Shown here: in pieces, positions 1,142 through 3,080 of the stretch | Layout of the letters: every line of letters starts with the position of its first letter | How positions within the stretch are numbered: position 1 is the first letter of the stretch | Source: Burkholderiales bacterium | Lineage (GTDB): Bacteria > Pseudomonadota > Gammaproteobacteria > Burkholderiales > Burkholderiaceae_C | Length of the DNA stretch: 64,000 nucleotides | Direction: 5' to 3' | NCBI GenBank assembly: GCA_025350505.1 | Contig: JANXXS010000410.1 | Span: 26,175 to 90,174, forward strand | Notes under the pieces: generated by a model | The model's input: only the letters and a program-made list of their open reading frames with translations | The model's database searches: none | Told to the model about the DNA's origin: nothing | Made by a program: the position numbers and the translations under genes

Positions 1142-1188
1142 GCTCGTCCTCGTTGCTGGCGTCCGCGTTGTTCTTCTGTGCTCATGCA

Positions 1189-1294
1189 GCATCGGGTCAG
1201 GGTGCCCTGCTCCGCTCCATGTCCCCCGATCCAGGGCTGAAGCCCTGGCTCTCCTCCTAGTACTTCCGCTCCGCAGGGCACCCTACCCCGATGC
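1189..1294 (+). repeat. Structured palindromic repeat, copy 1
   Basis: Outer arms GCATCGGGTCAGGGTGCCCTGC (1189-1210) and GCAGGGCACCCTACCCCGATGC (1273-1294) pair at 20 of 22 positions; inner hairpin CCAGGGC-TGAA-GCCCTGG (1231-1248); conserved cores TCCGCTCCATGTCCCCC and TCCTCCTAGTACTTCCGCTCC. Confidence 0.85.
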
Positions 1295-1332
1295 GACCGA
1301 CACGTGCGTGCGATGTCGCGCGGGCACCAGTC

Positions 1333-1452
1333 CGGACTTGGGTGAGTAGGCGGCGTGCGGAGCGGAAGTATTAGGAGGAGGCGAGCGCCAAGCTTGCTTG
1401 GTGCTCGCCGGGGGACATGGAGCGGAGCACGCCGCCTGCTCGCCCAAGTCCG
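1333..1452 (-). repeat. Structured palindromic repeat, copy 2 (inverted relative to copy 1)
   Basis: Outer arms CGGACTTGGGTGAGTAGGCGGCGTGC (1333-1358) and GCACGCCGCCTGCTCGCCCAAGTCCG (1427-1452) pair with two G.U-type positions; inner hairpin 1380-1409; on the minus strand carries TCCGCTCCATGTCCCCC and TCCTCCTAATACTTCCGCTCC, nearly identical to copy 1. Confidence 0.85.
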
Positions 1453-1472
1453 CGTATGGACCGGCATCCCGA

Positions 1473-3080
1473 TCACATCCGGAACACACCGAACTTCGTC
1501 GCCGGAATCGGCGCGTTCAGCGTGGCCGCCAAGGAAAGGCCGAGAACCCGGCGCGTGTCGGCCGGGTCCATCACGCCGTCGTCCCACAGGCGCGCGCTGG
1601 CGTAGTACGGATGACCCTGGTGCTCGTACTGCTCGAGCAGCGGCGCCTTGAAGGCACGCTCTTCTTCCGCCGACCACGAGCCGCCGCGCGCCTCGATGCC
1701 GTCGCGCTTGACGGTGGCGAGCACGGCCGAGGCCTGCTCGCCGCCCATGACGCTGATGCGCGCGTTCGGCCACATCCACAAGAAACGCGGCGAATAGGCG
1801 CGGCCGCACATGCCGTAGTTGCCGGCGCCGAACGAGCCGCCGATCAGCACCGTGAGCTTGGGCACCTGCGCCGTCGCCACCGCCGTAACCATCTTCGCGC
1901 CGTCGCGGGCGATGCCGGCGTTCTCGACCTTCTTGCCGACCATGAAGCCGGTGATGTTCTGCAGAAAGAGCAGCGGCACGCGTCGCTCGCAGCAGAGCTC
2001 GATGAAGTGGGCGCCCTTCTGCGCGCTCTCGGAAAAGAGGATGCCGTTGTTGGCGATGATGCCGACCGGCATGCCATACAGGCGCGCAAAGCCGGTCACC
2101 AGCGTCGCGCCGTAGCGCGACTTGAACTCGTCGAGCCGCGAGCCGTCGACGATGCGGGCGATGACCTCGCGCACGTCGTAGGGCTTGCGCGTGTCCTGCG
2201 GGATCACGCCGTAGATCTCCTTCGGGTCGTAGAGCGGCTCTTCGCTCGGCTCGATCGTCACCGTCTCGGGCTTTCGCCGGTTGAGGCTGGCGACGATGCG
2301 CCGGGCAATTGCCAGCGCGTGCCGATCGTCGTCGGCCAGGTGATCGGCCACGCCCGAGAGCCGCGTGTGCACATCGCCGCCGCCGAGCTCTTCGGCCGTG
2401 ACGATCTCGCCGATCGCCGCCTTCACCAATGGCGGCCCGCCGAGAAAGATCGTGCCCTGGTTCTTGACGATGATGGTCTCGTCGCTCATCGCCGGCACGT
2501 AGGCGCCGCCGGCCGTGCACGAGCCCATCACGACGGCGATCTGGGCGATGCCCTGCGCGCTCATGTTGGCCTGGTTGAAGAAGATGCGGCCGAAGTGCTC
2601 GCGGTCGGGAAAGACCTCGTCCTGGCGCGGCAGGAAGGCGCCGCCGGAATCGACGAGGTAGATGCACGGCAGCCGGTTCTGCATCGCGATCTCTTGCGCG
2701 CGCAGGTGCTTTTTCACCGTCATCGGGTAGTAGGTGCCGCCCTTGACCGTCGCGTCGTTGGCGACGACCATCACCTCCTGCCCGTGCACCCGGCCGATGC
2801 CGGCGATCATGCCCGCGGCCGGGGCCTCGCCGTCGTACATGCCGTAGGCGGCGAGCTGGCCGATCTCGAGAAAGGGCGAGCCGGCGTCGAGCAGGCCGTC
2901 GACCCGCTCGCGAGGCAACAGCTTGCCGCGCGCCGCGTGCCGCTCACGCGACTTGGCGTCGCCGCCAAGTGCGATCTCGGCCGCACGGGCGCGCAGGTCG
3001 TCGACCTGCTTCTGCAGGAAGGCGGCATTGGCCCTGAAATCCTCCGAGCGCGTGTCGATGCGCGACTTCAACGCGGGCAT
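1473..3080 (-). CDS. Methylcrotonyl-CoA carboxylase carboxyltransferase (beta) subunit
   Basis: 535 aa, [29 protein letters not shown]...[56 protein letters not shown], typical MccB/LiuB. Confidence 0.93.

Follow-up and report, generated by a model that had tools for sequence, protein, structure and literature searches.

We have found that two hairpins in a Burkholderiales genome belong to a large family of paired elements, which is widespread in Burkholderiales and their relatives and apparently undescribed. They are probably non-autonomous mobile elements of a REPIN/MITE-like kind, whose folded single strand would be recognised by a mobilising enzyme. We are led to this reading by the dispersed copies, their patchy presence, an insertion between the genes mccB and mccA, a fold specific for one strand and the covariation of the two cores. 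The mobile unit would consist of two long hairpins with divergent orientation, arranged much as in REPINs. A trans-acting enzyme would recognise one strand of the hairpin in its folded form, with ssDNA more likely than RNA as the substrate, and would read its purine-rich internal loop and a stem of ~26-27 bp, not the sequence of the stem.

The window, i.e. the whole stretch of 64 kb that was analysed, has exactly two matches to the covariance model of the family, the hairpins E1 and E2 (E-values 1.8e-17 and 1.8e-16). Their features are given in Table 1. They lie in a gap of ~330 bp between two genes on the minus strand, mccB (carboxyltransferase, 1473-3080) and mccA (biotin carboxylase, start near 1141), which according to Pfam code for methylcrotonyl-CoA-type carboxylase subunits (PF01039; PF00289/PF02786). 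A sequence-only reading of this region had described two inverted structured copies with a shared layout, and direct reading and repeat finding confirm it. The outer stems, reported as 22 and 26 bp, are found by repeat finding at 1189-1210/1273-1294 in E1 (22 nt, 91%) and at 1333-1358/1427-1452 in E2 (26 nt, 92%). The core described as identical corresponds to the 17-nt sequence TCCGCTCCATGTCCCCC, present at 1211-1227 (+) and 1410-1426 (-); the other one differs at 1 of 21 positions, as had been noted. The opposite orientation is also clear: the GGAG form of the core is found in the minus strand at 1189-1294 and in the plus strand at 1333-1452. Dinucleotide shuffling gives far less stable folds for both hairpins (z -5.6 to -8.7, 0/200), and in both of them the folding energy is lower for the strand with GGAG...GGGGGACATGG, a first hint that one strand matters.

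Table 1. Features of the hairpin pair and its surroundings (window positions)
Feature	Position	Strand	Basis
E1, whole hairpin	1189..1294	- (core strand)	inverted arms; covariance-model match 1190-1293, 79.1 bits
E1 outer stem, 3' arm of core strand	1189..1215	-	repeat finding and alignment
E1 core B (GGGGGACATGGA)	1216..1227	-	
E1 inner hairpin, variable	1228..1251	-	
E1 core A (AAGTACTAGGAGGA)	1252..1265	-	
E1 outer stem, 5' arm of core strand	1268..1294	-	repeat finding and alignment
Spacer inside the divergent pair E1/E2	1295..1332	.	
E2, whole hairpin	1333..1452	+ (core strand)	inverted arms; covariance-model match 1338-1447, 83.3 bits
E2 outer stem, 5' arm	1333..1363	+	repeat finding; ortholog comparison
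E2 core A (AAGTATTAGGAGGA)	1366..1379	+	
E2 inner hairpin, variable; common to other copies of G000, G002 and G004	1380..1409	+	
E2 core B (GGGGGACATGGA)	1410..1421	+	
E2 outer stem, 3' arm	1422..1452	+	repeat finding; ortholog comparison
Candidate remnant of a terminal inverted repeat (GTCCTCGTTGCTGG), tentative	1146..1159	+	by-eye likeness to GGGCTCGTTGCGG (G017) and GGCCCGTTGCTG (G061)
Region from mccA start to mccB stop, holding the insertion	1142..1472	.	congener comparison

The family has a common plan: an outer stem of ~26 bp, two bases, core A (AAGTNNAGGAGGA), an inner hairpin of 13-42 nt, core B (GGGGGACATGGA) and the other arm of the outer stem. Copies were searched for by their cores and not by their stems; 128 distinct copies passed, and 48 dissimilar ones were the source of the covariance model. 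In these 48 sequences standard pairs occupy 93.5% of the cells against 50.7% in shuffled ones, a percentage with a slight bias due to the requirement of at least 18 of the 26 outer pairs for membership, and double changes are found at 26/26 outer pairs. With a covariation score of 0.982 the alignment is far above shuffled sequences (0.204, 0/500) and slid structures (0.186 at most). The stems of the two window copies had been described as different in sequence yet well paired, and the strong covariation of the family bears this out. Pairing is high up to position 26-27, drops at 27-29 bp and is near background by about 30.

Non-standard pairs in the stems have a clear polarity. G.U and A.C are found in a ratio of 102:20 in 63 non-redundant copies; 44 elements have more G.U and only 2 have more A.C (p 3e-11). 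A G.U in one strand is an A.C in the other, so that the purine-rich strand is the one under selection. The polarity persists in copies which are antisense to their neighbours (26:3 in singles, 48:1 in pairs): the fold of one strand is selected, equally in antisense copies. Compensatory change of the helix is thus beyond chance and on one strand, as in a structured RNA or ssDNA fold. It can also be followed in place. The E2 orthologs of the window's genome (G000) and of its congener G002 differ at seven outer pairs, five of them changed on both sides, two on one side and none broken. Such changes in situ suggest that an inserted copy keeps its fold, for which a purely selfish element would have no need. 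The inner hairpins of these two orthologs (the G002 one is L191) are unrelated, and the one in the window (1380-1409) is shared by further copies in G000, G002 and G004; judging from these sequences, copies seem to swap their inner hairpins.

The cores had been considered as unpaired, but core A and core B covary with each other and therefore are not simply so. When all 130 position pairs between them were tested in 130 non-redundant copies, the three highest values of mutual information were those of A2-B9, A9-B4 and A10-B3. The first one has A/T in 102 copies, G/C in 23, G/T in 2 and A/C in none; the second has G/G in 121 and A/T in 9, with no other combination; the third has A/G in 103 and G/A in 10, and some of its exceptions come from cores of 14 nt that were wrongly read as 13. 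Core variants are present in several distant lineages. Most likely the two cores are in contact and make up a structured loop that is in part non-canonical. Most variants, but not all, would be compatible with a G-quadruplex of two layers, in which GG-N-GG faces GG-N-GG. Most copies of core A contain a perfect Shine-Dalgarno-like AAGGAGG, and there is an ATG in core B; with the inner hairpin looped out, their spacing would resemble that of a start site.

The distribution of the family is uneven. The covariance model detects 16 copies in the window's genome; among five congeners three have 20, 8 and 7 copies and two have none. Elsewhere we find 31 copies in Rubrivivax pictus (G017, 99% complete), 39 in G062 and G063 and a maximum of 54 in the Burkholderiales MAG G061. 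In a sample of the bacterial family 180 of 400 genomes are positive (45%), in 79 of 141 genera; in a sample of the class only 4 of 369. Pattern scans also find further copies in the same genome and its relatives, as the earlier reading had anticipated, and in GTDB genomes at least 117 stretches, nearly all from MAGs and isolates of Burkholderiales, Rhodocyclales and Xanthomonadales; among the matches listed, the carriers include Roseateles, Rubrivivax, Sulfuritalea, Pseudoxanthomonas and Luteimonas. Common as it is, the family gave nothing meaningful against 4227 Rfam families, either at gathering or at relaxed thresholds; the sequence-only reading had not recognised it. Weak microRNA matches are probably artefacts of long hairpins. 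E2 has no match in plasmid and phage collections, and a search for the core sequence in the open literature returned nothing relevant and no description of the family. A Burkholderiales-1 motif without Rfam accession is listed by Weinberg et al. 2010 (PMC2864571), and our family may be identical to it.

The elements come in pairs. Neighbouring copies are divergent in 52 of 57 cases, with a core-to-core gap of mostly 98-119 bp, and the five further loci examined in the window's genome are also divergent pairs. The space between mccB and mccA had been called a small intra-operon gap, but against its ~330 bp the same junction has about 9-14 bp in two congeners (G004, G005), an empty site; G002 has a single ortholog of E2 there. 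The short junction indicates that the pair in the window is an insertion. It is probably a tolerated one in the mcc operon, and an effect on mccA expression is a possibility only; filled and empty operon junctions of this kind are natural sites for measuring effects on expression.

In R. pictus and in G061 the pair is found inside a unit of ~320-370 bp with terminal inverted repeats. In R. pictus these start with GGGCTC and continue with a CGTTGCGG-like sequence; units with hairpins reach 331 bp, and from others, only 73-127 bp long, the hairpins have disappeared wholly or in part. Four units of this genome (L263, L264, L267 and L278; 73-123 bp) have the same terminal repeats and no hairpin element inside. 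The units of G061 end in a related sequence, and their spacer is palindromic (GGTATTCGACGGTCGAATACC). In the window itself the sequence at 1146-1159 resembles an element end, and the terminal repeats of this pair are uncertain. There is no clear target-site duplication in the units of R. pictus, and in this genome the pattern used found no inverted pair of unit ends 0.5-4 kb apart which could be a full-length parent. TGAAAC/GTTTCA near the ends of Rhodocyclales pairs was considered as a terminal repeat; it seems to be mostly gene stop/start context.

The sequence-only reading had offered two explanations for the copies, an RNA whose fold is conserved and a REP-like mobile element. Both are supported, the mobile half better than the RNA half on account of patchy copy number in one genus, empty sites, recurrent divergent pairs and terminal inverted repeats in two genomes. 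Against a mobile element stand the lack of any autonomous partner or transposase among those searched for and the housekeeping nature of the neighbouring genes; a relic family can outlive its enzyme. More tentatively, the elements could be a new class of mobile nucleic acid, defined by a three-dimensional motif which an enzyme recognises as a folded single strand: a purine-rich internal loop, in which A.G swaps with G.A and G.G with A-U (a non-Watson-Crick covariation), placed between a free-sequence stem of ~26 bp and a free hairpin.

It is useful to compare the family with known repeats. Like bacterial MITEs and ERIC/RU sequences, its members have a few hundred bp or less, are non-coding and are tolerated, whichever way they point, in gaps between co-directional genes. 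R. pictus and G061 have terminal inverted repeats, the window only tentative ones; in contrast with MITEs no target duplication is clear, and the family is defined by structural covariation and not by a conserved sequence. No parent insertion sequence has been found, and for this reason we do not assign them to the MITEs of a known one. In attC sites and IS200-IS605 ends a folded single strand is read mainly by its structure and the stem sequence is variable. By analogy our elements may work in the same way, although we see no attC boxes nor any association with a Y1 transposase, and a long stem with a conserved two-strand loop is particular to them. Single copies have a weak GC-skew bias (26:12), which does not match what is expected from lagging-strand targeting of the IS200/IS605 type. 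The usual logic of bacterial palindromic repeats is inverted here: the loop conserves its sequence and the stems conserve their shape. The family thus provides a deep natural alignment from which a new loop motif of nucleic acids can be studied, and it points to a mobilising enzyme that reads structure.

The main rival is a role at the level of the host, as a cis-acting RNA which might stabilise or process mRNA or bind CsrA/RsmA through its four GGA motifs. We consider it rather unlikely, but it is kept alive by the compensatory changes in situ between orthologs, and the strand-specific fold and covariation also favour it. Conserved internal-loop nucleotides between covarying helices, with G.U favoured, are found in the structured RNAs of Rfam; our family differs from them by its many copies per genome and by having no association with particular genes and no orientation preference. 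A simple GC-position script was used for gene calling, and single placements can therefore err. Of 87 placed units, 57 are in co-directional gaps, as a cis RNA might be, 23 in convergent and only 7 in divergent ones; in the background of gaps >100 bp (n=290) the figures are 158, 65 and 67. Yet the singles between co-directional genes are sense in 22 cases and antisense in 20, equally well folded. This absence of orientation preference counts against a general cis-RNA role, and so do the range of 0 to 20 copies within one genus and the absence of an Rfam family.

The neighbours are ordinary metabolic and housekeeping genes. Some junctions recur in different species, at fliR (L280/L287), motB (L281/L291) and ureC (L283, L046, L055, L065), the first two genes named by eye from their first residues, and such recurrence also speaks for the cis RNA. 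It may be due either to repeated insertion in a hot spot or to inheritance of an old insertion with rapid turnover. The copies at the flagellar junctions (fliR, motB) have dissimilar stems. One element (L148) appeared to lie within an ORF of 905 codons; this long reading is probably spurious, since its Pfam domains begin only at about residue 535 and the element is upstream of them.

Returning to the mobile element, the family has many features of REPINs and BIMEs: its palindromes are short, non-coding and intergenic, the two of a pair point in opposite directions with a short spacer between them, the copy number is patchy (several to dozens) and singles look like broken pairs. However, REPINs have REP hairpins of 20-40 bp with a conserved stem sequence and a RAYT partner, while here we find ~26 bp stems with an inner hairpin, free stem sequence, conserved cores and no RAYT link. 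GGAG is present in core A, next to the foot of the inner hairpin, but not as part of a sequence-conserved palindrome with GTAG/GGAG. Movement by a RAYT (TnpA-REP) transposase would explain the divergent pairs and is very unlikely. Y1_Tnp (PF01797), which covers the IS200 type including RAYTs, is absent from the carriers G000, G002, G004, G062 and the 99%-complete R. pictus, and the RAYT loci of other carriers have none of these hairpins, negatives which are limited by the partial genomes. Three RAYT-like genes that were inspected (L151, L153 and L154) are flanked by their own distinct repeats, such as AATGTGAGCCTGGCCCCTTT and GGGGTCAGGTTCATTTTC. The RAYT link having been looked for and not found, we do not classify the family as REPIN/BIME.

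IS110 and reverse transcriptase are each absent from several carriers, again within the limit set by partial genomes, and a Pfam scan of 143 flanking genes shows no prominent transposase among the 25 commonest of 129 families. Two loci with two elements facing each other 2 kb apart (L113, L146) looked like an autonomous unit by their layout. L113 turned out to have two separate elements downstream of DadA-like and Lrp-like genes (named by eye).

Long perfect arms are known substrates of template switching (quasipalindrome correction). It could maintain complementarity between the arms in the absence of selection, as the paired changes in orthologs would allow, and covariation would then be uninformative about function. 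We give this a very low probability, since it predicts neither the 102:20 excess of G.U over A.C on the element's own strand nor a fixed stem length and core-core covariation. Movement by way of RNA, with a reverse transcriptase copying a transcript of the hairpin back, is hardly likely either: RNA-like covariation with G.U intermediates would fit, but RVT_1 is absent from six carriers (G004, G017, G063, G064, G065, G068), and the terminal inverted repeats of R. pictus and G061 suggest a DNA transposon. A local duplication-inversion at this locus alone, which two inverted copies side by side might recall, is already refuted by the many copies elsewhere in the same and other genomes; these copies together with stem covariation are the opposite of what the sequence-only reading had named as evidence against itself.

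A few copies have unusual features. Two of them (L304 and L305, in G607 and G678) have long A-rich inner loops, elements of 124-131 nt and cores GGCGGA or GAAGGA/GGGTGA. A contig labelled as Nostoc (L102) has a Roseateles-like pair, which is probably an assembly contamination. Finally, two chimeric copies, L024 (G004:C7:194266-194331) and L027 (G017:C33), have the layout TCCATGTCCCCC-hairpin-GGGGGACATGGA, which is that expected from a deletion between the inverted copies of one pair.
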